From: Deltaproteobacteria bacterium
Lineage (GTDB): Bacteria; Myxococcota_A; UBA9160; SZUA-336
Length of the DNA stretch: 64,000 nucleotides
Direction of reading: 5' to 3'
Assembly: GCA_016875225.1 (NCBI GenBank)
Contig: VGRW01000006.1
Span: 1 to 64,000, forward strand
Shown piece by piece: positions 12,391-45,919 of the stretch. The notes under the pieces were generated by a model. The model worked only from the letters and a program-made list of their open reading frames with translations, had not been told where the DNA came from and did no database searches. A program made the position numbers and the translations under genes. Within the stretch, counting starts at the first letter, position 1, and every line of letters starts with the position of its first letter.

Positions 12391-12418
12391 AGCTTACTCA
12401 TGAGTCAGTCGAAGTCAA
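12391..12418 (-). promoter_or_regulatory. Promoter with embedded inverted-repeat operator (CoxG/EtfD intergenic)
   Basis: On the minus strand the -35 is TTGACT (12418-12413) and the -10 is TAAGCT (12396-12391), 16 bp apart. The spacer and the first -10 bases contain CTGACTCATGAGTAAG (12408-12393), a near-perfect palindrome. The identical architecture, with the same 4-bp offset between -35 and palindrome, occurs upstream of the TetR gene (45892-45919). It points toward the CoxG-like gene but lies only 46-73 bp upstream of the EtfD-like TTG start, so a bound repressor could affect both. Confidence 0.7.
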
Positions 12419-12463
12419 CCAATTCGTGCGCCGCGCTCGAGCGGCGGGCGGAACGGAGCCGCG

Positions 12464-14473
12464 TTGCCCACCCGTGAGATCTACTGGAACGTCGTCGGCG
12501 AGGCGCTGATCTATCCGTTCGCGCTGCTCGCGCTGCTGCTCTTCGCGCGCGGGGTCGCTCGGCGGTACGCGCTGTGGCGGAGCGGCCGGCCGCAGGCCCG
12601 CTTCGACCGGCCGCTGCTGCGGCTTCGCGGGCTCCTCGTCGAGGTGTTCGGCGGACGGCGGCAGCTGCGCGATCCGCTCGCGGGCGGCGCGCATCTGCTG
12701 ATCCTCTACGGATTCTGCGCCGAGCTGATCGCCACATCGCTGATCTCGCTCCAGGACTGGAGCGGGGTGCACTTCCTCGAGGGACGCTTCTATCTGGGCT
12801 ATTCGCTCTTCGCCGACCTGTTCGGGATCGCGGGACTGATCGGCGTCGGGATGGCGGTCTGGCGGCGCGCGTTCCTGCGCCCCGCGCACCTGCACACGGT
12901 CTTCGACGACTGGCTGGCGCTCGCGCTGCTCGGGCTCGTTTTCGCGCAGGGCTTCGCGATCGAAGGCGCGCGGATCGCGGTGACCGAGCTCGAGTCGCAG
13001 CCAGGTCTCGCGATCTGGTCGCCCGGCGGCTACGCGGTCGCGCTGCTGCTTCGGCCGCTCTCGGACACCTCGCTCCTGCTCCTGCACCGCGCGCTCTGGT
13101 GGGTGCACGCGCTGACCGCGTTCGGCTTCATCGGCTACGTGGCGTACGGAAAGCTCGAGCACATCGCCTACGGCCTCGCGAACGTCTTCACGCGCAATCT
13201 GGCTCCCTCGGGAAAGCTCGCGCACTTCGACATCGAGGCCGCGCTCGACGCGGATCCGGAATCCGTCGCCGAGCTCGGCGTCGGGCGCATCGGCGCCTTC
13301 ACCTGGAAGGATCTGCTCGATCTGGACGCCTGCACGAACTGCGGTCGCTGCGAATCCGTCTGCCCGGCGCACCAGAGCGGCGTGGCGCTGAGCCCCCGCA
13401 AGCTGATCCGCGACCTGAAGGACCATCTGAGCCAGCCTGGCACGCGCCCGCTCGTCGGCGACGGCCGCGACGGCGCGCCGCTTCCCGCCGTGCTCGAGGC
13501 CGAGGTCTGGGGCTGCCGTACCTGCGGCGCCTGTCAGCAGGAGTGTCCGGTCCTGATCGAGCACGTGCCGAAGCTCGTCGATCTGCGCCGTCACCTGGTC
13601 ATGACCGAGGCGAGGATGCCGGAGCCGCTGCAGCAGATGCTGCGAAGCGTGGACGAGCGGATGCACCCCTGGGCGGGATCGGGGCGGGATCGCGAGCACT
13701 GGTTCGCCGACCTGGATCTGAAGGTCTTCGGCCGTGGCGACACCGCGGAGTACCTGTTCTGGGTCGGCTGCACCGGCGCGATGGTCGACCGCAACGTCGC
13801 GGTCACGCGCGCGACGGCGAAGGTGCTCACGGCTGGTGGCGTCGACTTCGCGGTGCTCGGAGCGGAGGAGGCGTGCAGCGGCGACCCCGCACGGCGGACC
13901 GGCAGCGAGCTCGGCTTCCAGACCTGCGCCAAGACGAACATCGAGACGTTCGCGCGCTACGGCGTGCGCAAGATCATCACCACCTGCCCGCACTGCTTCA
14001 ACACGCTGCGCAACGAGTACCCCGATTTCGACGGCCACTACGAGGTGATCCACCACAGCGTGCTGATCGAGCAGCTGATCCGGGATGGACGCCTGCCGCT
14101 GCGCCGGGAGCTCGAGTCCGTCACGTACCACGATCCGTGCTACCTCGGCCGACACAACGGCGTGTACGACGCGCCGCGAAACGTCGTGGCGGCGCTCGCG
14201 CGGCCGGGCGCGATGCGCGAGCTCGAGCCGGGTGGATCGCGCTCGCGCTGCTGCGGGGCGGGCGGCGGCTACGCCTGGATGGACGACTCGCCGGAGACCC
14301 GCATCAACCACACGCGGATCGAAGACGTGCTGGCCAGCGGCGCCACGACTGCCGCGGTCGGCTGCCCGTTCTGCCTGCAGATGTTCGACGACGGCCTGCG
14401 CGCTCGCGATCCCGCCGGGGGGATCCGCGCGGCGGACCTGGCCGAGCTCGTGGCCGAGGCGCTCGAGAACTGA
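12464..14473 (+). CDS. EtfD-like membrane Fe-S oxidoreductase (ETF:menaquinone type)
   Basis: 669 residues. N-terminal ~230 residues carry about five hydrophobic helices of nitrate-reductase-gamma type. Two [4Fe-4S] ferredoxin motifs follow: CTNCGRCESVCP near residue 292 and CRTCGACQQECPVL near 350. Two CCG (heterodisulfide-reductase B-like) domains close the protein, with TTCPHCFNTL, HDPCYLGRHNGVYD and SRCCGAGGGYAW. This layout matches EtfD (Mycobacterium Rv0338c), which passes electrons from electron-transfer flavoprotein to menaquinone during beta-oxidation. A TTG start has GGAG 7 nt upstream. No etfAB genes are in the window. Confidence 0.82.
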   Translation: MPTREIYWNVVGEALIYPFALLALLLFARGVARRYALWRSGRPQARFDRPLLRLRGLLVEVFGGRRQLRDPLAGGAHLLILYGFCAELIATSLISLQDWSGVHFLEGRFYLGYSLFADLFGIAGLIGVGMAVWRRAFLRPAHLHTVFDDWLALALLGLVFAQGFAIEGARIAVTELESQPGLAIWSPGGYAVALLLRPLSDTSLLLLHRALWWVHALTAFGFIGYVAYGKLEHIAYGLANVFTRNLAPSGKLAHFDIEAALDADPESVAELGVGRIGAFTWKDLLDLDACTNCGRCESVCPAHQSGVALSPRKLIRDLKDHLSQPGTRPLVGDGRDGAPLPAVLEAEVWGCRTCGACQQECPVLIEHVPKLVDLRRHLVMTEARMPEPLQQMLRSVDERMHPWAGSGRDREHWFADLDLKVFGRGDTAEYLFWVGCTGAMVDRNVAVTRATAKVLTAGGVDFAVLGAEEACSGDPARRTGSELGFQTCAKTNIETFARYGVRKIITTCPHCFNTLRNEYPDFDGHYEVIHHSVLIEQLIRDGRLPLRRELESVTYHDPCYLGRHNGVYDAPRNVVAALARPGAMRELEPGGSRSRCCGAGGGYAWMDDSPETRINHTRIEDVLASGATTAAVGCPFCLQMFDDGLRARDPAGGIRAADLAELVAEALEN

Positions 14474-14551
14474 GCCTGGACTCGCGCGATCGATCGAGGG
14501 CACCATCCCGGCAGGCGCGAAGCGATCGACGTGCGGACTGAGGAGCGGAGC

Positions 14552-15328
14552 ATGGCGGGCCCACTGGACCTGACCGGCCGGGTCGTGATCGTCACCGGCG
14601 GGACGCGCGGGATCGGTCGCGGCATCGCCCGGCGTTTTCTCGAAGCGGGTGCCGAGGTCCTGGTCTGCGGCAGAAGCGACGTGGACGAGCTTCCCGCCGC
14701 CGGCTCGCGCCGCGCGCACTTCGCCCGCGCGGACGTGCGCGAGGTCGAGCAGATCGAGTCGGTGATCGGCCTGGCGCTGCAGCGCTTCGCGCGGATCGAC
14801 GTGCTGGTGAACAACGCCGGCGGCTCGCCCCCGGCGGCGGCTGCCACCGCCTCGCCCCGCTTCTCGGAAGCGATCATCCGCCTGAACCTGATCGCGCCGC
14901 TCCACTTCGCGCAAGCCGCAAACGCGGTGATGCAGAAGCAGGAGCAGGGCGGCTCGATCATCAACATCGCGAGCGTGAGCGGAGTGCGGCCCTCCCCCGG
15001 AACGGCCGCGTACGGCGCGGCCAAGGCGGGCCTGCTGAACCTGACCCGGACGCTCGCGGTGGAATGGGCCCCGAGAGTCCGCGTGAACGCGATCACGGTC
15101 GGCATGATCCAGACCGAGCAGGCCGATCTGCACTATGGCGACGCGCGCGGGATCGCCGCGGTCGCCGCCACCGTTCCGCTGGGCCGGCTCGGCCGACCCG
15201 AGGATGTCGGCAACGCCTGCCTGTTCCTCGCCTCGAACCTTGCGGGCTACGTCTCCGGCTCGGCGCTCGAGCTGCACGGCGGCGGCGAGCGGCCCGCGTT
15301 CCTGGGCGCGTCCAACACCGGGAAGTGA
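14552..15328 (+). CDS. Short-chain dehydrogenase/reductase
   Basis: 258 residues. Classical SDR: NAD(P)-binding TGGTRGIGRG near residue 17, NNAGG, catalytic Ser in IINIASVSG, and YGAAKAG (Tyr-x3-Lys). The C-terminus LFLASNLAGYVSGSALELHGG fits the 3-oxoacyl reductase/hydroxyacyl dehydrogenase subgroup. ATG 14552 has GGAGCGGAG just upstream; an in-frame GTG at 14531 is less likely. It follows the EtfD-like gene by 78 bp. Probably oxidises a 3-hydroxyacyl-CoA or steroid hydroxyl; substrate unknown. Confidence 0.88.
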   Translation: MAGPLDLTGRVVIVTGGTRGIGRGIARRFLEAGAEVLVCGRSDVDELPAAGSRRAHFARADVREVEQIESVIGLALQRFARIDVLVNNAGGSPPAAAATASPRFSEAIIRLNLIAPLHFAQAANAVMQKQEQGGSIINIASVSGVRPSPGTAAYGAAKAGLLNLTRTLAVEWAPRVRVNAITVGMIQTEQADLHYGDARGIAAVAATVPLGRLGRPEDVGNACLFLASNLAGYVSGSALELHGGGERPAFLGASNTGK

Positions 15329-15335
15329 CGCGGGA

Positions 15336-16739: not shown

Positions 16740-16770
16740 CTGGACCGACCGGCGATCGCGCGCGCTCGAG

Positions 16771-16784
16771 TCATCTCGAGATGA
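16771..16784. promoter_or_regulatory. 14-bp perfect palindrome in divergent promoter region
   Basis: TCATCTCGAGATGA is a perfect inverted repeat in the 89-bp space between the amidohydrolase (ATG 16739, minus) and the small protein/ligase operon (ATG 16829, plus). Its position suits an operator acting on both transcripts. It differs from the CTGACTCNNGAGTRAG motif seen elsewhere, so a different regulator is implied. Confidence 0.45.
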
Positions 16785-16828
16785 TACGCTGCGCGGCATC
16801 GGCCCAAGAGTGTGAGGTGAGCGCGCTG

Positions 16829-17140: not shown

Positions 17141-17144
17141 TCGA

Positions 17145-18659: not shown

Positions 18660-18676
18660 CTTCCGCGGACGAGCTC

Positions 18677-21367: not shown

Positions 21368-21383
21368 CTGACTCGCGAGTGAG
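21368..21383 (+). promoter_or_regulatory. Operator motif CTGACTCGCGAGTGAG upstream of acyl-CoA dehydrogenase
   Basis: This 16-bp inverted repeat matches those at 12393-12408 and 45902-45917 in 14 of 16 positions when the two central bases are ignored. It lies just upstream of the AGGAG site and TTG start at 21397. A possible -10 TAGGTT (21357-21362) would place the transcription start within the repeat. This indicates that the acyl-CoA dehydrogenase and following genes form a separately controlled unit inside the longer plus-strand run. Confidence 0.6.
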
Positions 21384-21396: not shown

Positions 21397-22581
21397 TTGG
21401 ATTTCGACTTCACCGCCGAGCAGAAGGCGTTCGTGGCCGAGGTCGAGCGCTTCCTCGACGAGAACCACGACCCCGAGGTCATGGACCCGAGCCGCGAGAA
21501 CATGGCGCAGCTCGTCGACACGCCGAAGCGCCGGGCGTTCATGAAGAAGCTCGGGCAGCGCGGCTGGCTGGGCATGACCTGGCCGCGCGAGTACGGCGGG
21601 CGCGAGGCCGACGGCATCTTCGAGTTCCTGCTGAACGAGTGCCTGGCCCGGCGCGGCGCGCCGCAGATCGGCAAGGGCGTCGGGATCATCGGCAAGACGC
21701 TGATCCGGCACGGCAGCGAGAAGCTGAAGCGCGAGTTCCTGCCGAAGATCCTCGAGAACGACGTCGAGTTCGCGATCGGCTACAGCGAGCCGCAGGCCGG
21801 CTCCGACGCCGCGGCGATGCAGCTCCGGGCGGTGCGCGAGGGCGACGGCTGGCGGCTCGACGGCCAGAAGATCTTCACCACCTCGGCGCACTTCGCGCAG
21901 TGGTACTGGGTCGGCGCGCGCACGGATCCCGACCGGGCCAAGCACGACGGAATCAGCCTGTTCCTGCTGCCGATGGACGCGAAGGGCCTCACGGTCCACG
22001 CGATGCCGACGATCGGCGAGCGCGAGATCACCAACCAGGTCTTCTTCGACTCGGTCTTCGTGCCCGACGACTACCGCGTCGGCGAGCTGAACCGGGGCTT
22101 CCAGTACATCTCGGAAGCGCTCGATCTGGAACGGTTCACCATGTTCACGTTCTCGCCGATCCAGGGCCGGGTCGAGCTGCTCTGCGACTACGTCGCGCGC
22201 GCGCAGCGCGACGGCCGCCCGCTGCGCGAGGACCCGGTGATCCGCGCGCGGATCGCGCAGCTCCTGACCGAGACCGAGGTGGCGCGCGTGCTGGGCTTCA
22301 GCTTCGTCGCGAAGTCGATGAAGGGCGGGGCCGCGCCGACGGTCGAGGCCTCGGAGTACAAGCTCTACGCGACGCAGCTCTCGCAGCGAGTGGCCAACGC
22401 GTCGCTCGACATCGGCGGGCCCGCCGCGCAGCTCCGCGTCGGCGAGGCGGACGCGCCGATGAACGGCCGCGCCGACACCAGCTATCGCTGCACGGTGGTC
22501 GAGACGATCGGCGGCGGCGCGTCCGAGATCCAGAAGAACATCATCGCGCGGCGCAAGCTCGGGCTGCCGCGCAACTTCTAA
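21397..22581 (+). CDS. Acyl-CoA dehydrogenase (FadE/ChsE type)
   Basis: 394 residues. FAD/substrate motifs IGYSEPQAGSDAAAMQLRA and GQKIFTTSAHFAQWYWVGAR near residues 128-175. The usual MCAD catalytic position is GGGASEIQKN with no Glu, while Glu245 in EALDLERFTMF occupies the isovaleryl-CoA-dehydrogenase-type position. Steroid ChsE enzymes are heterotetramers of one catalytic and one partner subunit; the second FadE at 24816 could be that partner. TTG 21397 has AGGAG upstream; an in-frame GTG at 21379 is inside the operator. Confidence 0.9.
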   Translation: MDFDFTAEQKAFVAEVERFLDENHDPEVMDPSRENMAQLVDTPKRRAFMKKLGQRGWLGMTWPREYGGREADGIFEFLLNECLARRGAPQIGKGVGIIGKTLIRHGSEKLKREFLPKILENDVEFAIGYSEPQAGSDAAAMQLRAVREGDGWRLDGQKIFTTSAHFAQWYWVGARTDPDRAKHDGISLFLLPMDAKGLTVHAMPTIGEREITNQVFFDSVFVPDDYRVGELNRGFQYISEALDLERFTMFTFSPIQGRVELLCDYVARAQRDGRPLREDPVIRARIAQLLTETEVARVLGFSFVAKSMKGGAAPTVEASEYKLYATQLSQRVANASLDIGGPAAQLRVGEADAPMNGRADTSYRCTVVETIGGGASEIQKNIIARRKLGLPRNF

Positions 22582-22587: not shown

Positions 22588-23757
22588 GTGGCGGCGGTGC
22601 CTCTCCTCTCCGGGTACAAGGTGCTGGACTTCTCGAGCGTGGGGCCGGCGTCGCGCTGCTCGCGCATCCTCGCCGACTACGGCGCGGAGGTGATCAAGGT
22701 CGCTCCGCCGCCGGCGAAGGCCGCGGCGCAGATCCAGCCGCCGTTCCACAGCTACGGCGCGGGCCGCGGCATGAAGTGGCTGCGCGTGGACCTGAAGCAG
22801 CCCGCGGGCCGCGACGCGCTGCTCCGCGTGCTGCGAACCGCGGACGTGCTGATCGAGAGCTTCCGCCCCGGCGTCGCCTCACGGCTGGGTCTGGGCTACG
22901 AGGCCCTGCGCGAGCTGAATCCCGGGATCGTCTACTGCTCGACCAGCGGCTACGGCCAGACGGGGCCCTACGCGCAGTGGGCCGGGCACGACCTGAACTA
23001 TCTGGCGCTCGGCGGGTATCTCGCGTGCTCGGGCCGCCGCGCGGATGGAGCGCCGGCGCTGCCGGGCGCGAGCGTCGCCGACGCGGCCGGCGGTGGGATG
23101 CACGCGGCGATCGCGATCCTGGCCGCGCTTCTCGAGCGCGGGCGCTCGTCGCGCGGGGCTCATCTGGACGTCTCGGCCACCGACGGCGTGCTCTCGCTGA
23201 TGTCGCTCGCCATCGACGGGTACCTGGCGACCGGAGACGAGCCGGGACCGGGATCCGACCTCCTGACCGGGCGCTACGCGTGCTACGACGTGTACCCGGC
23301 GCGCGACGGCCGCTTCCTGGCGGTGGCGGCGATCGAGCCTGCGTTCTACGCGAACCTGTGTCGCGCGCTCTCGCTCGAGGCGTGGATTGCGCACCAGCTC
23401 GACGACGCCCGACAGGACGAGATCCGCGCCGCGTTCCGCGCGGCCTTCGCGCGCCGCGATCGCGACGAGTGGATCGCGGAGCTCGCGCCGCGCGACACCT
23501 GCGTCTCGCCGGTCTACACGGTTTCCGAGCTGGCTCGCGACGCGCACCTCGCCGAGCGCCGCTCCTTCCAATCCGCCGTGCACGCGGAGCGCGGCACGCT
23601 TCGCCAGCTCGCGCCGATCCTGGCCGGTGCGAGCCGCGAGCCGTCGGGCCGGCCGCTCGGCGCGGATTCCGGCGGCGAAGCGATCGAGCTTCTGCGCGCC
23701 GCGGGCCTGGCCGAGGCGGAGATCGAGCGCCTGCGCCGCGACGGGGTGGTCGCGTGA
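22588..23757 (+). CDS. CaiB/BaiF family CoA-transferase
   Basis: 389 residues. N-terminus LLSGYKVLDFSSVGPASRCS, GAEVIKVAPPP, and GAHLDVSATDGVLSL carrying the Asp expected at the catalytic position. Six bases separate it from the acyl-CoA dehydrogenase. Within an igr-like operon it could transfer CoA between steroid acids or, as an alpha-methylacyl-CoA racemase relative, epimerise a methyl-branched side chain. The racemase His/Asp pair was not identified with confidence. GTG start. Confidence 0.87.
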   Translation: MAAVPLLSGYKVLDFSSVGPASRCSRILADYGAEVIKVAPPPAKAAAQIQPPFHSYGAGRGMKWLRVDLKQPAGRDALLRVLRTADVLIESFRPGVASRLGLGYEALRELNPGIVYCSTSGYGQTGPYAQWAGHDLNYLALGGYLACSGRRADGAPALPGASVADAAGGGMHAAIAILAALLERGRSSRGAHLDVSATDGVLSLMSLAIDGYLATGDEPGPGSDLLTGRYACYDVYPARDGRFLAVAAIEPAFYANLCRALSLEAWIAHQLDDARQDEIRAAFRAAFARRDRDEWIAELAPRDTCVSPVYTVSELARDAHLAERRSFQSAVHAERGTLRQLAPILAGASREPSGRPLGADSGGEAIELLRAAGLAEAEIERLRRDGVVA

Positions 23758-23784: not shown

Positions 23785-24306
23785 ATGGCTGAGCTCTCCG
23801 AGATCCCCGAACACGTGCGCGCCTGGATCGGCGTGCCGCTCGTCGAGGACGAGGGCGAGTTCGAGATCGAGCGCGGCTACATCGCGACGAGCCTGGCCTC
23901 GGTCGAGAACGGCAATCCGCTGTTCTGGGACGACGCGGTGGCGCGCGAGATCAGCGGCGGCCCGATCGCGCCGCCGAGCATGCTCTCGGTCTGGCTGCGC
24001 CCGCACCACTGGGCGCCGGGCCGGCGCGAGGAGCGCTTGCCGCTCGAGATGCACTTCCGGCTGAAGCGCGAGCTCGCGCTGCCGGAGGCGATCATCGCCG
24101 ACAACGAGCTCTCGTTCGGCGAGCCGGTGCGGCCGGGCGATCGACTGCGCAGCCGGCAGACGCTGCGCTCGATCTCGGAGCCGCGGACCAACCGGCTCGG
24201 CACCGGCCGCTTCTGGGTGATCGAGGTCGAGTACACCAATCAGCGTGGCGAGTGGGTGGGCACCGAGAGCTACAACTGTTACGGCTACCGGAGGGACGGC
24301 GCGTGA
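23785..24306 (+). CDS. MaoC-like dehydratase subunit (ChsH2 N-domain-like)
   Basis: 173 residues with a hotdog fold of the MaoC_dehydrat_N type: FEIERGYIATSLASVENGNPLFWDD, GGPIAPPSMLSVWLRPHHW, and FGEPVRPGDRLRSRQTL. It lacks the catalytic Asp/His pair seen in its partner, as does the structural ChsH2 half of the ChsH1-ChsH2 hydratase. Length corresponds to the MaoC half of ChsH2; the DUF35 half is encoded separately at 20879. Overlaps the next gene by GTGA. Confidence 0.82.
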   Translation: MAELSEIPEHVRAWIGVPLVEDEGEFEIERGYIATSLASVENGNPLFWDDAVAREISGGPIAPPSMLSVWLRPHHWAPGRREERLPLEMHFRLKRELALPEAIIADNELSFGEPVRPGDRLRSRQTLRSISEPRTNRLGTGRFWVIEVEYTNQRGEWVGTESYNCYGYRRDGA

Positions 24307-24785
24307 CCGCGCAGCTCGCGGCCCTGACAGCGGATCGAGTGAAGCCGGGCGACGCGCTCCCGCCGCTCTCCGTCGCCGTGACCGCCACCACCGTCGTGCT
24401 CGGGGCGCTGGCCGCGCGCGACTGGCGGCCGATGCACCACGATCGCGACTTCGCCCAGAACCAGGGCGTGCGCGACATCTTCCTGAACACCCCCAACATG
24501 GTGGCGTGGTTCGAGCGCTACCTGACCGACTGGACCGGTCCGCTCGGCCGGCTCGGCCGCATGAAGTTCAAGATCAAGAAATCCGTGTGCCCCGGTGACA
24601 CCATGGTGTTTCAAGGGCGCGTCGACGGCGTCGCGAGCGACGAGACCGGCTGTGTCTGGGCGAGCGTCTCGATCGATCTGACCGTGAAGGGGGACAGCAT
24701 GATGAGCTGCAGCGCGCGCATCGCTCTGCCCACGGACGCGTCCGACAACCCCTGGCGGCGGCGCGGGCGCGACTGGCGGCCGTAG
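24303..24785 (+). CDS. MaoC-like enoyl-CoA hydratase (ChsH1-like, catalytic)
   Basis: 160 residues. Hotdog-fold hydratase with the catalytic Asp-x4-His arrangement in ARDWRPMHHDRDFAQ, then NTPNMVAWFERYLTDW and KKSVCPGDTMVFQGRV. Together with the preceding MaoC protein it probably forms a heteromeric hydratase that adds water to the unsaturated side-chain acyl-CoA made by the acyl-CoA dehydrogenases, giving the hydroxyacyl-CoA that the Ltp2-like aldolase cleaves. GTG start overlaps the upstream stop. Confidence 0.85.
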   Translation: MTAQLAALTADRVKPGDALPPLSVAVTATTVVLGALAARDWRPMHHDRDFAQNQGVRDIFLNTPNMVAWFERYLTDWTGPLGRLGRMKFKIKKSVCPGDTMVFQGRVDGVASDETGCVWASVSIDLTVKGDSMMSCSARIALPTDASDNPWRRRGRDWRP

Positions 24786-24815: not shown

Positions 24816-25949
24816 ATGGATCTCGACTGGAGCGAAGAGCAGCAGATGCTTCGGGAGATGGTGCGCGGCGTCTGTCGCCACCACTCTCCGATCGCCGTGG
24901 TTCGCGCCTTGGAGGACGATCCGATCGGCTACCCGGCGGAGCTCTGGAAGAAGATGGGCGAGCTCGGGCTGATCGGGCTGCAGATCCCCGAATCATTTGG
25001 CGGCGGCGGGCAGACGCTGCTCGAGAGCGCGGTCGTCTTCGAGGAGCTCGGCCGCGCGCTCGCGCCCGTGCCGCTGCTCGGCAGCGCCGTGCTCGGCGCG
25101 GGCGCGCTGCTGCGCGCGGGCGACGAGGCGCAGAAGCAGAGCCTGCTGCCGGGCCTGGCCTCGGGCGCGAGCATCGTCGCACCCGCATGGCTCGAGCCCG
25201 AGCGCGGCTTCGGACCGGACGGCGTGCAGCTCGAGGGGGCGCGCGTGGGCGACGAGTACAGGCTGCGCGGCACCAAGCTGCACGTGCCGTTCGCGCGCGC
25301 GGCCACGCAGCTTCTGGTCCTCGCGCGCACGGGCCCGGCGCGAGACGCGATCGACCTCTTCCTGGTCGATCCGTCGCAATCCGGTGTCGGGCTCGCGCAG
25401 CAGCACAGCCTGGCCTCGGACACCCAGTACCGCGTCGAGCTCGACGGCGTGCGCGTGCCCGCGTCTTCGCGCGTCGGTGCGCCCGGCTCGGGCTGGGCGA
25501 CCTGGAATCGAGTCATGCTCGACGCGATCGTGCTGCTCGCCGCGCAGGCGATGGGCGGTGCCGAGCGCGCGCTCGAGATCACCGCCGAGTACGCCAAGGA
25601 GCGCAAGCAGTTCGACAAGCCGCTCGGCGCGTTCCAGGCGATCGCGCACTACCTGGCCGACGCCGTGACCCGGATCGACGGTGGCAAGGCTCTGGTGTAC
25701 GAGGCGGCCTGGGCGATCGCGACCGGACGGCCGAGCGAGCGGCTCGCGCCGATGGCGAAGCTCTTCGCCTGCCAGACCTACCGCGACGTGACCGCGACCA
25801 TGGTGCAGATCTGGGGCGGCGTCGGATTCATCGCGGAGTACGACATCCAGCTCTACTTCCGCCGCGCGAAGCAGCTGCAGCTCTCGTACTGGGACACGCG
25901 CTACCTCGAAGAACTCGTCGCGGCGTCCGCGCTGGACGGGGGACGGTGA
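24816..25949 (+). CDS. Acyl-CoA dehydrogenase (second, ChsE1-like partner)
   Basis: 377 residues. Acyl-CoA dehydrogenase fold with LWKKMGELGLIGLQIPESFGG, AQAMGGAERALEITAEYAKE, RKQFDKPLGAFQAIAH, and C-terminal QIWGGVGFIAEYDIQLYFR. The N-terminal and middle domains are shortened (LLGSAVLGAGALLRAG), typical of the partner subunit of heterotetrameric steroid acyl-CoA dehydrogenases. ATG 24816 has AGGGAG at 7 nt; GTG 24810 is too close to it. Overlaps the next gene (GTGA). Confidence 0.87.
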   Translation: MDLDWSEEQQMLREMVRGVCRHHSPIAVVRALEDDPIGYPAELWKKMGELGLIGLQIPESFGGGGQTLLESAVVFEELGRALAPVPLLGSAVLGAGALLRAGDEAQKQSLLPGLASGASIVAPAWLEPERGFGPDGVQLEGARVGDEYRLRGTKLHVPFARAATQLLVLARTGPARDAIDLFLVDPSQSGVGLAQQHSLASDTQYRVELDGVRVPASSRVGAPGSGWATWNRVMLDAIVLLAAQAMGGAERALEITAEYAKERKQFDKPLGAFQAIAHYLADAVTRIDGGKALVYEAAWAIATGRPSERLAPMAKLFACQTYRDVTATMVQIWGGVGFIAEYDIQLYFRRAKQLQLSYWDTRYLEELVAASALDGGR

Positions 25950-28393
25950 CGGTCGCGAAGTCGAGCGGCGCCCTGCACGGCAGGCGCGTGCTCGACCTCG
26001 CGGACGCGAGCGGGGCGTACTGCGGCAAGCTTCTCGCCGACCTGGGCGCCGACGTGATCAAGGTCGAGCCGCCCGACGGCGATCCCTCGCGGCGGCACCC
26101 GCCGTTCCGCGCTCGCGTCGCCCATCCCGACGCGAGCCTGTTCTTCCTGTACATGAACACGAGCAAGCGCGGCGTCGTGCTCGACCTCGCGGAGGCGCGC
26201 GATCGCGAGCGCCTGCTCGAGCTCGCGCGCGGCTCGGATCTCCTGATCGAGGCCTTCCCGCCCGGGCAACTCGACGCGCTCGGCCTCGGCTACGCTGCCC
26301 TGTGTCGCGCGAATCCGAGGCTCGTGCTCACCTCGATCACGGGCTTCGGCCAGACGGGGCCGCGCCGCGGCTGGAAGTCCTCGGACCTGGTCGCGACCGC
26401 GCTCGGCGGCGCGGCCGGCGTGATCGGCGAGGCCGAGGACCCGCCGGTGCGGCTCGCCGGCGAGCAGGCGCACGTGTCGGCGTCGCTGGTCGCCGCGGCG
26501 AGCAGCCTGATCGCGCTCCACCAGCGCGACCGGACCGGGCAGGGCCGGCACGTCGACGTCTCGATCCAGGAGGCGGTGCTCTCGCTCAGTCACATCACCG
26601 GGGTCGGCAAGTACCTCGACGACGGAATCGTGCCGCGCAGGCGCGGCGCGGGGCTGTTCGCATCGGTCCCGTCCGGCACGTATCGGTGTCGCGACGGGCT
26701 CGTCTACCTGATGATCAACCGCCCCGCGCACTGGCAGGCGCTGGCGCGCTGGGTCCACGAGGTGACCGGCAACGAGGAGGTGCTCGCGCCGATCTTCGAC
26801 GGGCCGTCGTCCAATCGCATCGAGTACCGCGAGCTGCTCGACCTGTTCATCGCCGAGCTGACCGAGCGCTTCACGGTGCAGGAGGTCTACCGCGAGGGTC
26901 AGCGCCGCCACATCGCGTTCACTCCGGTGAACGGCGCCGCGGCGCTGATCGAAGACCCGCAGCTCGAAGCGCGCGGATTCTTCGCCGAGCTCGCGCACCC
27001 CGTGGCGGGGGCGATGCGCATGCCCGGCGCTCCGTACCGGCTCTCGCGCACGCCCTGGCGGATGACTCGGCCGGCGCCGCGTCCGGGCGAGCACCAGACC
27101 GAGATCCTCGGCGGCGAGCCGCCGCTGCGTGCGCGCACGTACGCCGCTGCCGCGGAATCGGGCGCGGAGCTCGAGGGCCTGCGCGTGCTCGAGTTCAGCT
27201 CCGCGATGGCCGGGCCGTGGATCGGCCGCTTCATGGCGCACTGCGGGGCCGAGGTGATCCGCGTCGAGTCGCGAAAGCGCCCCGACGTGGTGCGCCTGTA
27301 CGTTCCGCCGCGCGCGCCCGAGCTCGGCACCCAGCCGCAGCTCTCGCCGTGGTTCACCGACTGGAACGCGGGCAAGCGCTTCGTCGCGCTCGATCTCGCG
27401 AATCCGCTCGGCGCAGAGCTGGCCCGACGACTGGCCGCCGCCTGCGGCGTGGTGATCGAGAACCAGCGCGCCGGCGTGATGGAGAAGCTGGGACTCGGCT
27501 ACCGCGAGCTCGCACGCGCCCGCCCCGACCTGGTCATGCTCTCGAGCTCGGGCTTCGGCGACACCGGCCCGTGTCGCAGCTACGTCACCTGGGGCCCGAA
27601 CATCGAGGCGCTCTCCGGCCTCGCGGAGCTCTCCGGCTTTGCCGGCCGCTCCTGCACCATGACCCAGTACGCCTACCCCGACGGCCTCTCCGCGCTTCAC
27701 GGCCTGGTCGCGCTGATGGCCGCGCTCGATCACCGCGCGCGAACGGGCGAGGGCCAGCACATCGACCTGTCTCAGCTCGAGGCGACCGTTGCCTCGATCG
27801 GCCACGCGCTGCTCGAGCAGCTCGCCGACGGAGTCACGCCCGCACGGCGCGGCAACCGCTCGACCTGGGCCGCCCCGCACGACTGCTATCCCTGCCGCGG
27901 CGAAGACCGGTGGTGCGCGATCGCGGTGACGAGCGACGCGGAGTGGGCCGCGCTCTGCCGCGCGATCGGCCGTCCCGACTGGGCCGCGGATTCGCGCCTG
28001 GCGCACGCGGCGGGCCGCCTCGCGCACGCCGACGAGCTCGACGCCGGCATCTCGGCCTGGACCCGCGAGCGCGACGACATTCAAGTGATGGATCTGCTGC
28101 AGCGCGCCGGAGTTCCCGCCGGCGCGGTGCAGGACACCCGCGACCAGCACGAGCGCGACCCCCACCTGGCCGCACGCGGATTCTTCGAGGAGCTCGAGCA
28201 CTACAAGAAGGGAAGGGTGACCGCGACCGGAATCCCGCTCGGCCTGGGCCCGCGAACCCGCCCGCGTCTCCCCGCCGGCGCCGCCCTGGGCCAGGACAAC
28301 ACGTACGTGTTCCGCGAAATCCTCGGCCTGTCGGCCGACGAGTTCCGCGAGCACGTCGAGGCCGGCGCGATCGAGATGTCCGACGCCGAGTGA
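25946..28393 (+). CDS. Tandem double-domain CaiB/BaiF CoA-transferase
   Basis: 815 residues, two complete CaiB/BaiF domains in one chain. Domain 1 (about 10-395): HGRRVLDLADASGAY, GADVIKVEPPDGD, catalytic Asp204 in GRHVDVSIQEA. Domain 2 (from about 407): EGLRVLEFSSAMAGPW, GAEVIRVESRKRPD, Asp607 in GQHIDLSQLEA. Class III CoA-transferases are interlocked dimers, so a fused pair can make an intramolecular dimer. Both Asp residues are present. Last gene of the igr-like operon, followed by a convergent SDR. A related fusion is at 49122. Confidence 0.9.
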   Translation: MTVAKSSGALHGRRVLDLADASGAYCGKLLADLGADVIKVEPPDGDPSRRHPPFRARVAHPDASLFFLYMNTSKRGVVLDLAEARDRERLLELARGSDLLIEAFPPGQLDALGLGYAALCRANPRLVLTSITGFGQTGPRRGWKSSDLVATALGGAAGVIGEAEDPPVRLAGEQAHVSASLVAAASSLIALHQRDRTGQGRHVDVSIQEAVLSLSHITGVGKYLDDGIVPRRRGAGLFASVPSGTYRCRDGLVYLMINRPAHWQALARWVHEVTGNEEVLAPIFDGPSSNRIEYRELLDLFIAELTERFTVQEVYREGQRRHIAFTPVNGAAALIEDPQLEARGFFAELAHPVAGAMRMPGAPYRLSRTPWRMTRPAPRPGEHQTEILGGEPPLRARTYAAAAESGAELEGLRVLEFSSAMAGPWIGRFMAHCGAEVIRVESRKRPDVVRLYVPPRAPELGTQPQLSPWFTDWNAGKRFVALDLANPLGAELARRLAAACGVVIENQRAGVMEKLGLGYRELARARPDLVMLSSSGFGDTGPCRSYVTWGPNIEALSGLAELSGFAGRSCTMTQYAYPDGLSALHGLVALMAALDHRARTGEGQHIDLSQLEATVASIGHALLEQLADGVTPARRGNRSTWAAPHDCYPCRGEDRWCAIAVTSDAEWAALCRAIGRPDWAADSRLAHAAGRLAHADELDAGISAWTRERDDIQVMDLLQRAGVPAGAVQDTRDQHERDPHLAARGFFEELEHYKKGRVTATGIPLGLGPRTRPRLPAGAALGQDNTYVFREILGLSADEFREHVEAGAIEMSDAE

Positions 28394-32212: not shown

Positions 32213-33850
32213 TCACCGTCGCTCGCGCGCCCGCTCCCGCAGCACGAACTTCGTGACCTTGCCGGTGGCGTTCATGGGCAGCGAGTCGACGATCTCGACG
32301 TGGCGGGGGACTTTGAAGTTGGCCATCTGCTCGCGACACCAAGCGGTGACGGTGGCGGGGTCGAGGCTGGCGCCGGGGCGGGGGACGAGGAAGGCCATGC
32401 CGACCTCGCCCAGGCGCTCGTCGGGGATGCCGATCACGGCGGCCTGGGCGACGCCGGGCAGGCCGAGCAGCGCGTTCTCGATCTCGGCGGGGTAGCAGTT
32501 GAAGCCGCCGACGATGAACATGTCCTTGATGCGGTCGGTGATGCGCAGGTAGCCGCGCGCGTCCATCACGCCGACGTCGCCGGTGTGGAGCCAGCCGCCC
32601 GCGTCGATCGCGTCGCGCGTGGCGGCGGGGTCGTCCAGGTAGCCGAGCATCACGTTGTAGCCGCGCACCACGATCTCGCCGGGCTGGCCGCGCGGGACTT
32701 CCGCGCCGTCCTCGGCGACGCAACGCACTTCGACGTCCGGGATCGCGCGGCCCGACGTCGTGGCGATCGTCTCGGGGTCGTCTTCGGGGCGGCACATGCT
32801 GACCACGCCCGTGCTCTCGGTGAGTCCGTAGCCGGTGATCACCGTCTCGAAGCCGAGCTCGCGGCGCATGCGGTGGACGAGCTCGACCGGGATCACGGCG
32901 GCGCCGGTCACGGCCAGGCGCAGCGGCGACAGGTCGTAGCGGGACAGGTCGGGCGTGGCGAGGATCGACTGGTACAGGGTGGGCGGACCGGGCAGCACGC
33001 TGATCCGCTCGCGGGCGATCCGCTCCAGCACCGCGGGCGGGTCGAAGACGGCGTGCGGGATCACCGTGGCTCCGCGCATGAAGGCGGAGAGCCAGCCGGC
33101 CTTGTAGCCGAAGCCGTGGAAGAAGGGATTCACGACCAGATAGCGGTCCGAGTCACGCAGCCCGACGATCTCGCTCCAGGCCGCGAAGCAGCGCAGGTTC
33201 TGCGCGTGGGTCGTCATCACGCCCTTCGGCTTTCCGGTGGTGCCGGACGTGAAGAGGATGTCGGAGAGCGCGTCGGGCGGGACCGACTCCGCTCGGTGTC
33301 GGGCGTCGATCGCGGCGACGCGGTGGCCGCGCGCGAGGAACTCGGACCAGGCCTCGACGCCCGGCTCGATTGCTGCGCCGTCCGCGCCGCGCAGCACCGC
33401 GATCCGCTCGAGCTTCGGCAGGCCCGCGACCGGCCGACCCGCGGCGGCGCCGCCGAGCGCGCGCTGCAGAAGCTCGACGTAGTCGACGCCGAGGAAGCCC
33501 CGCACCGTGCAGAGGACGCGCGCGCCGCTCTTCTCGAGCACGTAGCCGGCCTCGAGTCCCTTGAGCCGGGTGTTCAGCGGGACGAGCACGGCCCCCGCGG
33601 CCTGCAGGCCCAGCGCCGCCGTGATCCACTCCCAGAGGTTGGGCGCCCAGATCGCGACGCGGTCGCCCGGGCCGATGCCCGCGGCCATGAAGGCGCGCGC
33701 GGCGTCTAGCATCGCCTCGGCGAGCGCTGCGTAGCCGAGCGCGACGGGGCCGTCCTCGATCGCGATCTTCCCGCCTCGGCGCGCGCCCGCGTCGAGGAGC
33801 AGGCGCGGGATCGTCTCGGCGAGCGGGTCGGTCGGGGTCATCGCGGCCAT
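32213..33850 (-). CDS. fadD3: FadD3: HIP-CoA synthetase (steroid C/D-ring ligase)
   Basis: 545 residues. ANL-family ligase closely resembling mycobacterial FadD3, which attaches CoA to the propionate chain of 3aa-H-4a(3'-propanoate)-7ab-methylhexahydro-1,5-indanedione (HIP), the two-ring steroid remnant. Shared segments include DRVAIWAPNLWEW, SDILFTSGTTGKPKGVMTTH, NPFFHGFGYKAGWL, VLPGPPTLYQSIL, RITDRIKDMFIVGGFNCYPA and C-terminal NATGKVTKF. Start is either ATG 33850 or ATG 33841; a TATTAT -10 (33857-33852) favours the second as a nearly leaderless start. Divergent from the MFS gene with only 15 bp between. Confidence 0.92.
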   Translation of the reverse strand: MAAMTPTDPLAETIPRLLLDAGARRGGKIAIEDGPVALGYAALAEAMLDAARAFMAAGIGPGDRVAIWAPNLWEWITAALGLQAAGAVLVPLNTRLKGLEAGYVLEKSGARVLCTVRGFLGVDYVELLQRALGGAAAGRPVAGLPKLERIAVLRGADGAAIEPGVEAWSEFLARGHRVAAIDARHRAESVPPDALSDILFTSGTTGKPKGVMTTHAQNLRCFAAWSEIVGLRDSDRYLVVNPFFHGFGYKAGWLSAFMRGATVIPHAVFDPPAVLERIARERISVLPGPPTLYQSILATPDLSRYDLSPLRLAVTGAAVIPVELVHRMRRELGFETVITGYGLTESTGVVSMCRPEDDPETIATTSGRAIPDVEVRCVAEDGAEVPRGQPGEIVVRGYNVMLGYLDDPAATRDAIDAGGWLHTGDVGVMDARGYLRITDRIKDMFIVGGFNCYPAEIENALLGLPGVAQAAVIGIPDERLGEVGMAFLVPRPGASLDPATVTAWCREQMANFKVPRHVEIVDSLPMNATGKVTKFVLRERARERR

Positions 33851-39829: not shown

Positions 39830-39847
39830 CCACGGCACACGCCGGAG

Positions 39848-40756: not shown

Positions 40757-40776
40757 CTCCGCGCTCCGCCGCCGGC

Positions 40777-41931: not shown

Positions 41932-41946
41932 CTCGGTCCCCTCCGC

Positions 41947-42705: not shown

Positions 42706-42715
42706 CGCGCAATCC

Positions 42716-43771
42716 TCATCGTTGGAGTGACTCGAGCGTCTGCTCGGCCTCGCGCATGATGCGCTCGACCAGCTCCGCGCAGCTCGGCCGATCCGAGATC
42801 ACGCCGGCCACCGTGCCGCTGGGCAGGACGCCCTCGGCCGGCCGCCCCTCGACCATCGCGGCCTGGATCAGGATCGGGGAGTTCGCCGCCATCAGGGTCT
42901 CGGCGCGCGAGAGCTTCTCGCTGCGACGCAGCGCGAACGCAGCGCGCAGGAGCTCCGGGATCGATGCGCCGGAGAGCCTGCGGTAGGCGAGAGCGCTGCG
43001 CAGCGCGCGCAGCAGCAGCGCCGCGCGGCTGCTCGCTTCGAGCTCGCGAACCAGCTCGTTCACGATCACGCGGTGGCTCATCCCGTCGATTCGCGTGGTC
43101 ACGATCAGGTCGTCCACGCCCGCCTGGAAGTAGCGCTCGGCGGTGGCCGCGGGAACCGGGCTCTCTCGGGTCAGCAGGAAGCGCGTGCCCATCGCGATCC
43201 CGACCGCCCCGAAGGCCAGCGCAGCGACGAGCCCGCGTCCGTCGTGGAAGCCGCCCGCGGCGACGACCGGCCGGTCGACGGCGTCGACGACCTGCGAGAC
43301 CAGGATCGACGTAGGGACGCTTCCGGTGTGGCCGCCGCCCTCGCCGCCCTGGATCACGATCACGTCGGCGCCGAGCTGGACGGCCTTCTGCGCGTGTCGC
43401 ACCGCGCCGCAGGTGGGAATGCAGAGGATCCCGGCCTGCTTGAAGCGCTTGATGAAGTCGGGATTCGGCGCGCGGCTGTAGCTCGCCGCGCGAACGCGCT
43501 GGCCGATCATCGCGTCGACGATCTGCTCCGCTCCGGGCGCCTCCATCAGCAGGTTCACGCCGAACGGGCGATCGGTGAGCTGCTTCACGCGATCGATCTC
43601 CCGGTCCACCTCGTCGGGCCGCAGGTTCGCGGTGGCGAGGAATCCCATCGCGCCCGCGTTCGAGCTCGCGGCCACGAGCTCCGGCGTGGCGATCCAGCCC
43701 ATCGCGGTCTGCAGGATCGGATGGCGGATCCCCAGGATCGAACACAGCTCGGTATCGAGTGGTGAGGCCAT
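42716..43771 (-). CDS. ipdC: IpdC: flavin-dependent reductase (nitronate monooxygenase fold)
   Basis: 351 residues. FMN-binding TIM barrel: SILGIRHPILQTAMGWIATP, VIQGGEGGGHTGSVPTSI, VAAGGFHDGRGLVAALAFGA and GTRFLLTRESPVP. The annotation nitronate monooxygenase would be misleading; order and similarity match mycobacterial IpdC, which acts with IpdF to introduce the double bond/keto form needed before D-ring opening. Eight bases separate it from ipdB. Confidence 0.92.
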   Translation of the reverse strand: MASPLDTELCSILGIRHPILQTAMGWIATPELVAASSNAGAMGFLATANLRPDEVDREIDRVKQLTDRPFGVNLLMEAPGAEQIVDAMIGQRVRAASYSRAPNPDFIKRFKQAGILCIPTCGAVRHAQKAVQLGADVIVIQGGEGGGHTGSVPTSILVSQVVDAVDRPVVAAGGFHDGRGLVAALAFGAVGIAMGTRFLLTRESPVPAATAERYFQAGVDDLIVTTRIDGMSHRVIVNELVRELEASSRAALLLRALRSALAYRRLSGASIPELLRAAFALRRSEKLSRAETLMAANSPILIQAAMVEGRPAEGVLPSGTVAGVISDRPSCAELVERIMREAEQTLESLQR

Positions 43772-43778
43772 CGCCGGG

Positions 43779-44543
43779 CTAGCCCCCGAGTTCCTTCTGG
43801 CCGGCTCCGAGCGGGTCGAGCCGCGTGCGCAGAATCTCGAGCTCGAGGTCGGTCGGCGATCGCGTCTCGGGCACGTCGCGCGCGATCTCGAGTGCGAAGC
43901 CCGTGCTCTCGACGACCTGTGCGACGGAGACGCCCGGGTGGACCGACGCGAGCCGCATGGTCCGGCTCGACGTCGCGAAGTCGAACACGCCCAGATTCGA
44001 GACGACGCGGCGAATCTCGTGGAAGCGGCGGGCGCGCTCGCCGAGCCGGGCCGCGCGGTCGTAGCCGACGCCCGAGACCACGTCGACCTTCTCGACGAAG
44101 ACGCGCGGGCCGTGGTTGGGCACCCAGTAGCTGGTCGGGTGGTTCAGCGTATTCCCCGGCGCGCCACGCATGCCGAGCAGCTGCGCCTTCGGCCGCGCGA
44201 ACGGGCCGATGCAGGCGATGTTCTGGTTGCCGAAGCGATCGACCTGCGTCGCGCCCATCATGACGTGGCGACGCCCGGCCCAGAGCGTGTCGAAGACGCT
44301 GCGATAGGGCAGCCAGCCCTCGACCACCGGCGGCTCGTGCGGCTCGCCGCCAAGCGGCGGAACGCTGGCCAGCAGCATGGCGACTCCGTCGGTGAGCAGC
44401 AGGTCCGGCTCGAACGTGAGCCGCGCCAGCCGCGCGCCGATGCTCGGCAACGTCCCGATCGGACTCACGAGTGTCTCGCCATCGCCGCGGAAGGTCTCTG
44501 CGATCGCGACGGCGCAGATCTCGGCGCGGGTTGCGCCCGTCAT
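43779..44543 (-). CDS. ipdB: IpdB: beta subunit of COCHEA-CoA hydrolase
   Basis: 254 residues. Class I CoA-transferase-like beta subunit: FEPDLLLTDGVAMLLA, GRRHVMMGATQVDRFGNQNI, GNTLNHPTSYWVPNHGPRVF, VDVVSGVGYDR and SNLGVFDF, closely matching IpdB. With IpdA it hydrolyses the six-membered C ring of the (R)-2-(2-carboxyethyl)-3-methyl-6-oxocyclohex-1-ene-1-carboxyl-CoA intermediate; it does not transfer CoA. Starts ATGA overlapping the ipdA stop. Confidence 0.94.
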   Translation of the reverse strand: MTGATRAEICAVAIAETFRGDGETLVSPIGTLPSIGARLARLTFEPDLLLTDGVAMLLASVPPLGGEPHEPPVVEGWLPYRSVFDTLWAGRRHVMMGATQVDRFGNQNIACIGPFARPKAQLLGMRGAPGNTLNHPTSYWVPNHGPRVFVEKVDVVSGVGYDRAARLGERARRFHEIRRVVSNLGVFDFATSSRTMRLASVHPGVSVAQVVESTGFALEIARDVPETRSPTDLELEILRTRLDPLGAGQKELGG

Positions 44544-45397
44544 CGCGCGCGCACCGCGCGCTGATAGGCCGCTTCGTCGGGAAGCTCCAGATACGTCTTC
44601 TTGAACGTCTCCCACTGGCCGGGATCACGCGCGGTGGCCGCGTACTCGCGCTGGAAGGCCTCGTCGCGCCCGTAGTCGGGCGGACATTCGGTGAAGTGCG
44701 CGCCGTTGGGCGCCTCGACCACGCCGTCGATCATCGAGCGGTTGATGCGGAGCGTGTGGAACGTCCCCTCGCGCAGCAGCTCGCCGCTCTCGACGATCCG
44801 CTCGCAGCTCATGAAGCGCTCGCGCGCCGCGCCGCAGAACAGGTCGTCGAAGTACAGGTCGGGACCGAGATACTGGCCGTTGCCGCGCGCGTCGGCGCGG
44901 TTCATGTGGATCAGCGCCGCATCGAGCTCGATCGCGGGCATGGCCACCAGCTCCTCGCCGTCCGCGTACGGTGACCGCACGAGCGAGAGGTGCGGGTTGA
45001 TCGTGAGCACGTCCGAGCCGAGACCCGCGCGCGTGGGCAGGAAGGGCAGGCGAAGCGACGCGGCGTACAGGCCCCACTGCAGCATGCCCTCGTCGTACTC
45101 GACCGCCTCGATGCGCCCCTCTTCGCGCGCCCGCCGGAAGTGCGGCTCGAGCGGAATGGAGTCCAGCGAGACGAAGCCGTAGACCACGCGCCTCGCCTTT
45201 CCGGAGGCGCAGAGCAGCCCGACGTCCGGGCCGCCGTAGGAGACGATCGTCAGGTCGCGCAGCTGCGAGCGCAGGATCGCGCGGACCAGCGACATCGGCT
45301 TGCGTCGCGAGCCCCAGCCACCGATGCCGATGGTCATGCCGTCGCGAAGCCGGGCCACGACGTCGGCCTCGCTCATGCGCTTGTCCTGCCTGGCCAT
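44540..45397 (-). CDS. ipdA: IpdA: alpha subunit of COCHEA-CoA hydrolase
   Basis: 285 residues. Very high motif agreement with IpdA: DGMTIGIGGWGSRRKPMSLV, VSYGGPDVGLLCASGKARRV, YGFVSLDS, DEGMLQWGL and VEAPNGAHFTECPPDYGRD. The Glu of the DEGML motif (residue 103) is, as far as I can align it, the catalytic Glu reported for IpdAB. ATG 45397; a TATACT -10 lies about 45 bp upstream. First gene of the ipdA-ipdB-ipdC-echA20-fadA6-SDR unit. Confidence 0.95.
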   Translation of the reverse strand: MARQDKRMSEADVVARLRDGMTIGIGGWGSRRKPMSLVRAILRSQLRDLTIVSYGGPDVGLLCASGKARRVVYGFVSLDSIPLEPHFRRAREEGRIEAVEYDEGMLQWGLYAASLRLPFLPTRAGLGSDVLTINPHLSLVRSPYADGEELVAMPAIELDAALIHMNRADARGNGQYLGPDLYFDDLFCGAARERFMSCERIVESGELLREGTFHTLRINRSMIDGVVEAPNGAHFTECPPDYGRDEAFQREYAATARDPGQWETFKKTYLELPDEAAYQRAVRAR

Positions 45398-45441
45398 CCG
45401 GTCTCTCAGTTTTCGGCGAGGGGCGCTCCAGCGCGCGCGGT

Positions 45442-45447
45442 AGTATA
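45442..45447 (-). promoter_or_regulatory. Candidate -10 element of the ipdA operon
   Basis: TATACT on the minus strand, 45 bp before ATG 45397, in the 78-bp space shared with the divergent SnoaL-like gene. No good -35 is seen at 16-18 bp. It resembles the SDR promoter at 29231 (CTATACT with CCG nearby), suggesting a shared -10-only promoter type. Confidence 0.35.
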
Positions 45448-45475
45448 GGCTGCAATGCAATGAAGGTGGAAGGAC

Positions 45476-45895
45476 GTGAGTGAGAATCCCGCGAGAACGG
45501 CGTCGCGCCGGTCGGTACACATCGTAGAGACACGCCCGGAGAACGCGAAGCAGCAGTGGCTCGAGCTCTTCGCGGACGATGCGATCGTCGAGGATCCGGT
45601 CGGGCGCTCGCCGCTCGACCCGCAGGGAAGCGGGCACCGGGGCAAGCAGGAGATCGGCGCGTTCTGGGACCGCACGATCGCGCCGGTCCGTGTGAAGTTC
45701 GAGCTCCGCGACTCGTACGCCTGCGGCGACGAGGTCGCCAACGTCGCGAAGATCAGCACCACGCTCCCCGACGGCTCGCGTTTCCGCACCGAGGGCGTGT
45801 TCGTGTACCGCGTGGATGCGGCGGGGAAGATCGTCTCGTTGCGCGCGTTCTGGGAGTTCGATCGCATGGGGGCCAGCGTCGAGAAATCCGGTTGA
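45476..45895 (+). CDS. SnoaL/ketosteroid-isomerase-like (NTF2-fold) protein
   Basis: 139 residues. Cone-shaped NTF2 fold pattern: NAKQQWLELFADDAIVEDPV, GHRGKQEIGAFWDRTI, VAKISTTLPDGSRFRTEGVF and VSLRAFWEFDRMG. The WLELFADDAIVEDPVG segment is typical of proteins annotated as steroid delta-isomerase-like. The location, divergent from ipdA and just before the TetR and KstD-like genes, makes a steroid isomerase role reasonable, but the catalytic Tyr/Asp were not assigned. GTG start with GGAAGGA. Confidence 0.78.
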   Translation: MSENPARTASRRSVHIVETRPENAKQQWLELFADDAIVEDPVGRSPLDPQGSGHRGKQEIGAFWDRTIAPVRVKFELRDSYACGDEVANVAKISTTLPDGSRFRTEGVFVYRVDAAGKIVSLRAFWEFDRMGASVEKSG

Positions 45896-45919
45896 CAGTG
45901 CCTGACTCCCGAGTAAGAT
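45892..45919 (+). promoter_or_regulatory. TetR gene promoter with embedded operator
   Basis: -35 TTGACA (45892-45897), 16-bp spacer, -10 TAAGAT (45914-45919). The spacer and -10 contain CTGACTCCCGAGTAAG (45902-45917), same motif and same geometry as upstream of the CoxG-like gene. Predicted transcription start is about 45926, within two bases of ATG 45928, so the TetR mRNA may be leaderless. Autoregulation by TetR binding over the -10 is the simplest reading. Confidence 0.72.

Follow-up and report, generated by a model that had tools for sequence, protein, structure and literature searches.

The window analysed here (the whole 64,000-nucleotide stretch, positions 1 to 64,000 of contig VGRW01000006.1 of the Deltaproteobacteria bacterium assembly GCA_016875225.1) encodes a predicted TetR-family repressor of 215 amino acids (P0001; 45928..46575, plus strand). 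Pfam matches to TetR_N (E 1.1e-13) and, above cut-off, to TetR_C_24 give it the domain layout of this family. The tetR gene is followed after 4 bp by kstD (46580..48304, plus strand), for a 3-ketosteroid delta-1-dehydrogenase whose best PDB match is the 3-oxosteroid 1-dehydrogenase 7p18 (E 7.9e-187). Elsewhere in the window, an operon on the minus strand comprises, in this order, the genes for a CoxG-like protein of 187 amino acids (coxG, 11768..12331; Pfam COXG, E 1.3e-19), a HyuA or acetone carboxylase beta-like subunit (9572..11722; Pfam; PDB 5m45_B, E 9.5e-153), a HyuB-like subunit (7365..9602; Pfam Hydantoinase_B, E 3.4e-64), an acetone carboxylase gamma-like subunit (6798..7352; Pfam Acetone_carb_G, E 6.6e-38) and two class III CoA-transferases (Pfam CoA_transf_3), here called caiB2 (5599..6801) and caiB1 (4384..5595). 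A first-pass annotation of this DNA had pointed to a 16-bp motif shared by the promoters of tetR, of coxG and its divergent neighbour, and of an acyl-CoA dehydrogenase gene, and had suggested that it is the operator of a TetR regulon.

Exact matches to this motif, CTGACTCNNGAGTRAG, were found at the three positions given in that annotation, 12408-12393 (minus strand), 21368-21383 (plus strand) and 45902-45917 (plus strand), and nowhere else in the window. Because the pattern is near-palindromic, each site matches on the opposite strand too. A scan of the whole 3.87-Mb assembly (97.8% complete, 182 contigs), which had been called for as a check, revealed no scatter of the motif: the three exact matches to CTNACTCNNGAGTNAG are the same three sites, all on one 88-kb contig. 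With a first-order chance model derived from the window's own composition, 0.0024 exact matches to CTNACTCNNGAGTNAG are expected per 64 kb and 0.15 over the 3.87 Mb of the assembly, and a reversed control pattern had no match in the assembly. The signal is carried by the exact form of the motif only. When up to two mismatches were allowed, 4 matches were found in the window for 2.02 expected; with up to three, there were 11 for a chance mean of 11.24, and looser forms were rejected on account of this last count.

At two of the sites the motif is embedded in a promoter in the same manner. Upstream of tetR, the operator CTGACTCCCGAGTAAG (45902..45917, plus strand) belongs to a promoter (45892..45919, plus strand; 10/12 matches in a promoter scan) made of TTGACA (45892-45897), a 16-bp spacer and TAAGAT (45914-45919). 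The promoter facing coxG (12391..12418, minus strand) consists of TTGACT (12418-12413), 16 bp and TAAGCT (12396-12391), and holds the operator CTGACTCATGAGTAAG (12393..12408, minus strand). In both cases 4 bp separate the -35 hexamer from the 16-mer, the last four bases of which are the first four of the -10 hexamer; the sequence thus bears out the identical geometry that had been noted at the first and third sites. The simple promoter scan called the tetR promoter alone, and made no call at the coxG promoter, read here from the sequence, or at the second site.

We then compared 90 genomes of the class, the window's own included, with at most 33 candidates per genome taken for orthologue scoring. 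Orthologues of the TetR protein, 48-53% identical, were found in 7 of the 89 other genomes (G013, G015, G017, G073, G074, G075 and G076), and in all seven the gene next after tetR is kstD. Within the window's family (10 other genomes), matches of E 1e-20 or better are confined to G006 and G002, at 35-39% identity. The eight genomes with a TetR orthologue, including the window's, contain 17 exact matches to CTNACTCNNGAGTNAG. Eight of these stand at the orthologous tetR promoters, one per genome, and seven at coxG, one in each coxG-positive genome (the window's and six relatives); the remaining two are the window's second site and a match in G075 (L072) that adjoins no homologue of the window's genes. 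The 82 genomes without a TetR orthologue had 7 matches (about 0.09 per genome), which is the background level, and the reversed control pattern gave 9 over all 90 genomes. A search for coxG in 12 genomes located the gene in 7, the window's included, every one of which has a TetR orthologue. G074 and G076 have their tetR and coxG sites on one and the same contig, separated by 46 and 32 kb, respectively.

The conservation extends to the promoter elements and to individual operator positions. TTGAC and TAAG are invariant in the eight tetR and in the seven coxG promoters, all 15 sites following the scheme TTGAC, 5 nt, operator, with a -10 hexamer starting with TAAG. Across their 30 half-sites, C1, T2, A4, C5, T6 and C7 do not vary. 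Among the eight other matches (the seven background ones and L072), neither the GAGTAAG form nor a TTGAC at the operator spacing was present. This comparison, with an operator at 8/8 orthologous tetR promoters, supports the autoregulation of tetR that the first-pass annotation had suggested. The control of CoxG and EtfD that it had also proposed fared well for the first of these, the coxG promoter sharing the operator in all seven genomes, but not for the second, since this promoter faces coxG and the gene for the EtfD-like Fe-S protein (the first-pass name; 12464..14473, plus strand; Pfam CCG and Fer4) is only a divergent neighbour, whose control by the operator is uncertain. In the window, as in 4/6 relatives (G073-G076), etfD adjoins coxG in divergent orientation; in G017 it lies about 1.9 kb off, and in G013 it did not appear within the 2 kb upstream of coxG that were read.

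A further line of evidence came from the recognition helix. The window protein and its seven orthologues have the helix GITRAAVIYHF or GITRAAIIYHF together with an ACTCnnGAGT palindrome. Of 22 weaker homologues (34-46% identity), those with a GIRRAS or GIKRAS helix number 15, and the gene of each is preceded by TCTACCTGCnnGCAGGTAGA or a close variant of it, a palindrome of the form CTACCTGC..GCAGGTAG or nearly so, which is missing from the seven homologues with other helices. Five of these seven have other palindromes, such as CTTACTGGCGAGTAAG in L031; none was seen by eye upstream of L051 and L056. The pairing of helix and palindrome is our own reading of the upstream sequences, by eye and by pattern, the automatic palindrome finder having missed most ACTC operators because their third position and centre vary. 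It supports the view that each TetR homologue would bind the palindrome at its own promoter. The second TetR clade formed by 15 of the 22 homologues read (L032, L041-L046, L050, L052-L055, L057, L058 and L060), with TCTACCTGCGCGCAGGTAGA or a near variant upstream, is an observation in its own right; a search of the window that allowed up to 3 mismatches did not find the TCTACCTGCGCGCAGGTAGA palindrome.

Taken from sequence comparison, these findings suggest that the 45928 protein is a dimeric repressor and that its operator is the palindrome CTnACTCnnGAGTnAG. At the tetR and coxG promoters, this putative operator would occupy the spacer between -35 and -10 and reach into the -10 hexamer, and a bound dimer would for this reason exclude RNA polymerase. 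The repressed units would be tetR-kstD and the coxG/CoA-transferase operon, and release would most likely be brought about by a product of steroid catabolism, either a ketosteroid or a steroid acyl-CoA, binding to the C-terminal domain. We consider it highly probable that the TetR protein represses these two units through CTnACTCnnGAGTnAG, the third site being excluded from this statement. Since the same wiring recurs in related genomes, the switch is probably real and so far undescribed, though familiar in kind.

We considered the possibility that the palindrome belongs to a different regulator, the TetR gene being just a target among others, since the presence of a site in a regulator's own promoter is no proof that this regulator binds it. 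Yet the pair of tetR and coxG sites is confined to genomes with this TetR orthologue, and recognition helix and self-promoter palindrome covary among the homologues. Furthermore, the operators of KstR and KstR2 were likewise first located in the promoters of these regulators' genes, and binding by the regulators was demonstrated afterwards (PMC1995591, PMC3068626). We therefore regard a different regulator as quite unlikely. Still less probable, to the point of being hardly tenable, is that no operator is involved at all and that the 16-mer recurs as a conserved part of promoters or through chance similarity. Its TAAG part does belong to the -10 hexamer, and all 15 conserved sites lie within promoters; but the left half, CTnACTC, is located in the spacer and is nonetheless invariant at 6 positions across these sites, as a mirror image of the right half. 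For the reversed control, 90 genomes gave 9 matches.

Several observations weigh against the proposed repression or reduce the evidence for it. In the congener G010, neither a TetR match (at E 1e-20) nor a coxG match (at 1e-15) was found, and the motif is lacking too. The seven relatives are not independent of one another, as four belong to genus g43 and two to genus g14. In G015 (85% complete), coxG was not detected, there is no second motif site, and the reading frame of the tetR orthologue (L040, on contig G015:C74) is broken by an in-frame TGA, with the tetR site present. The AlphaFold model of the 45928 protein shows nine helices at low confidence (mean pLDDT 63, about 45 in the helix-turn-helix region) and is too weak to allow a statement on the ligand pocket; its fold matches are those of a generic TetR. 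Finally, the window's operators may work differently from those of the relatives, because a second half-site 19 bp downstream is missing at both the 45902 and the 12393 operators.

This second half-site was seen when the relatives' 13 operators were compared, seven at tetR (L061, L062, L064, L065, L067, L069 and L037) and six at coxG (L063, L066, L068, L070, L071 and L073). It lies exactly 19 bp downstream of GAGTAAG and reads GAGTYAR in 12 of them and AAGTTAG in one, a pattern that looks as if a second dimer bound there. At tetR the extra half-site overlaps the first codons, so that protein constraint may contribute to it.

The candidate third operator, CTGACTCGCGAGTGAG (21368..21383, plus strand), is an exact match that is not conserved. 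It ends in GAGTGAG, overlaps the ribosome-binding region of the TTG start codon at 21397, and is surrounded by no -35 or -10 element visible by inspection. The gene that follows (21397..22581, plus strand), the first of a likely operon, encodes an acyl-CoA dehydrogenase (Pfam; PDB 6wy8, E 9e-62, and 4x28, E 3.8e-57), which we take to be ChsE-like. Downstream of it, on the same strand, are caiB3 (22588-23757), maoC1 (23785-24306) and maoC2 (24252-24785), assigned with Pfam; the product of maoC2 matches the ChsH hydratase chains 4w78_B/4wnb_B in the PDB (E 2e-14). The control of this dehydrogenase, as put forward in the first-pass annotation, found no support in conservation, because its closest orthologues in five relatives (G013, G017, G074, G075 and G076; 62-69% identity) have a different, TACG-type element, TACGNNNCGTATCGTA, in place of the operator. 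Both elements are absent at further copies of 57-61% identity in G013 and G074 (L163, L164). In G015 and G073, where the best matches reach 37% and 32% identity, there is no close orthologue.

Exact copies of TACGNNNCGTATCGTA occur at 15 loci of the relatives (L189-L196, L198-L201 and L204-L206, in G013, G015, G017 and G073-G076), ahead of orthologues of the 21397 dehydrogenase, of caiB3-maoC1, of the ligase gene at 32213 and of more distant acyl-CoA dehydrogenases; perhaps this element marks a second steroid regulon there. Only exact matches entered this listing; when one mismatch was allowed, the reversed control gave matches of its own (1 in G017, 8 in G074, 2 in G075 and 1 in G076, both strands). 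In the window's genome and in the congener, TACGNNNCGTATCGTA has no match, even with one mismatch.

The second site may be a chance palindrome, with the acyl-CoA dehydrogenase operon outside the regulon, and we give this reading slightly less than an even chance; the tetR/coxG core would be unaffected by it. Besides the different element in the five relatives, it is favoured by the missing promoter geometry, by the GAGTGAG form, through which the site resembles several background matches in its letters, and by a chance expectation of 0.15 per genome and a mean of about 0.09 matches in regulator-free genomes of the class. Against chance, the site stands 29 bp ahead of the start codon of the dehydrogenase gene, in the same steroid cluster, for 0.0024 matches expected per 64 kb, and the TACG-type element is not found in this genome, even with one mismatch, so that control of the operon may have passed to a different regulator. 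Whether the window's lineage has moved the acyl-CoA dehydrogenase operon under the repressor of kstD, so that it joined the regulon in this genome, is about an even bet.

Comparison of the genes under the two conserved promoters shows that the conserved core is tetR-kstD and coxG with the CoA-transferases, and that the acetone-carboxylase-like trio is part of it in some genomes. The whole order of the coxG operon is kept in G013 and G017; in G073, G074, G075 and G076 a CoA-transferase gene directly follows coxG, with no carboxylase trio between. A counterpart of caiB2 is found downstream of coxG in 6/6 relatives (54-56% identity), and one of caiB1 in the four relatives read that far (62-64%). 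The simultaneous presence of HyuA-, HyuB- and gamma-type subunits matches the make-up of the acetone/acetophenone carboxylase group; all matches of the operon to the NCBIfam equivalogs ApcA-D and CapA/CapB were far below cut-off. Because of the homology of these proteins to acetone and acetophenone carboxylases, a ketone carboxylase and the CoA-transferases could, by analogy, convert a steroid ketone to a beta-ketoacyl-CoA, a possibility that is limited by the absence of the trio between coxG and the CoA-transferases in 4/6 relatives. Close to the coxG operon lies a gene of the enoyl-CoA hydratase family (window 2267-3163, plus strand) whose conservation is unusually high, with 76-78% identical counterparts in G013, G074 and G076.

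A wider proposition is that a so far undescribed steroid-responsive TetR couples KstD to an operon for an ATP-dependent ketone carboxylase and CoA-transferases, the side-chain acyl-CoA dehydrogenase operon having been rewired, in the window's lineage, from the TACG-type element to the present operator. We regard this as doubtful in its entirety. If it were true, carboxylation and CoA transfer may be the means by which a steroid ketone is activated in some of these uncultured bacteria. In a literature search in which most subscription papers were outside scope, we found no precedent for such a route, no paper combining three of the four subjects hydantoinase, steroids, CoA-transferase and CoxG, no paper containing the letters ACTCNNGAGT and, in the best matches, no mention of acetone carboxylase in connection with steroids, or of Binatota or Myxococcota in connection with steroid degradation or TetR regulons.

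The closest known parallels are other TetR repressors of steroid catabolism. KstR2 (Rv3557c) of mycobacteria and rhodococci is self-regulated and binds a 14-bp palindrome of 6+2+6 layout, AnCAAGnnCTTGnT, in three promoter regions (PMC3068626). The 45928 protein shares with it the probable self-regulation, a TetR fold match and the 6+2+6 operator layout, whereas the letters of the operator differ (TnACTCnnGAGTnA here) and the predicted targets are kstD and coxG/CoA-transferases instead of the HIP genes (PMC5380842). The fold match to KstR2 is at 20% identity, from a weak model, and KstR2 is not among the best 60 of 115 sequence matches to the 45928 protein; nor is KstR. The latter (Rv3574), also self-regulated, recognizes a 14-bp palindrome, TnnAACnnGTTnnA, that partly overlaps the -10 element of its own promoter (PMC1995591), and controls 83 genes in M. 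smegmatis (PMC3068626), in contrast with the two conserved promoters, at most three, considered here. The window contains no match to TnnAACnnGTTnnA or to AnCAAGnnCTTGnT, in agreement with the earlier remark that the motif is unlike the KstR and KstR2 operators.

SRTF1 of Pimelobacter (Nocardioides) simplex is a TetR protein whose gene adjoins that of a ketosteroid dehydrogenase; it binds a palindrome located between these two genes and is released by progesterone (PMC7062782, PMC7807495). The adjoining genes and the palindrome at the promoter are found here as well; by its description, however, the SRTF1 palindrome is 22 bp long and lies between divergent genes, whereas ours is 16 bp long and precedes a co-directional tetR-kstD pair. 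EdcR of Caenibius tardaugens, a TetR repressor of estrogen degradation, acts through a palindrome overlapping a -10 box (PMC8700777), as proposed here, but has another operator, TnnCnnTACnAnTnGTAnnGnnA, and other targets. The list of regulators linked to steroid degradation is described as very short (PMC8700777). The present switch would add to it a precise, testable operator and regulon in uncultured bacteria, and would tie to steroid metabolism a coxG/CoA-transferase operon, in some genomes with the carboxylase-like trio, a link that the enzyme sequences alone would not show. Given its well-defined operator, the TetR protein is a natural candidate for a steroid biosensor, like SRTF1 and EdcR.

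Other genes of the window also fit a steroid context. One protein matches the CoA-transferase chains 6co6/6con of the PDB and is presumably IpdB; a SnoaL-like protein is encoded just upstream of tetR, and the window further encodes an NMO-family protein with a FabK-type match, an enoyl-CoA hydratase and a thiolase. The actinobacterial KstR2 regulon for HIP catabolism includes ipdAB, ipdC (best hit FabK) and fadA6 (PMC5380842).

In a scan of named genomes other than the window's own, at least six TetR loci with 50-53% identity were found, five of them titled delta-proteobacterial (one a Myxococcota isolate). These six loci add no independent evidence, as their positions are those of six of the seven relatives already counted. 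The next match among those listed was in Plesiocystis pacifica (39%), and the motif was not found in the 18.6 kb examined around that homologue. Assignment of the 45928 protein to a named NCBIfam TetR equivalog was rejected, every match being far below cut-off.

Several other motif-like sequences were inspected in the window's genome. The core BACTCNNGAGTV occurs at 15 places, against 2 for its reversed control; the window's contig has 4 of the 15, and one of these falls inside the ipdB-like gene at 44462. Apart from the three sites discussed above, the remaining 12 were not counted as sites; they match 8-11 of the 12 fixed positions, are mostly within long open frames, and none has TTGAC in the operator geometry. 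A few of them may nonetheless be weak sites. A one-mismatch match on contig C36 was rejected because it overlaps a start codon, and eight others near the ends of seven contigs were rejected as copies of one repeat. This repeat, which ends in AGGCTCCTAG, is found at the ends of contigs C9, C45, C46, C75, C88, C134 and C140 (L004, L006-L012), is followed by unrelated sequence and is identical over 127 bp across the four longest copies compared; it may represent the terminus of a mobile element or be an artefact of the assembly. Within the window, a frame of 1068 amino acids (25187-28393, plus strand) matches class III CoA-transferases in two stretches, and represents either a fusion of two such enzymes or a pair of genes read as a single frame.

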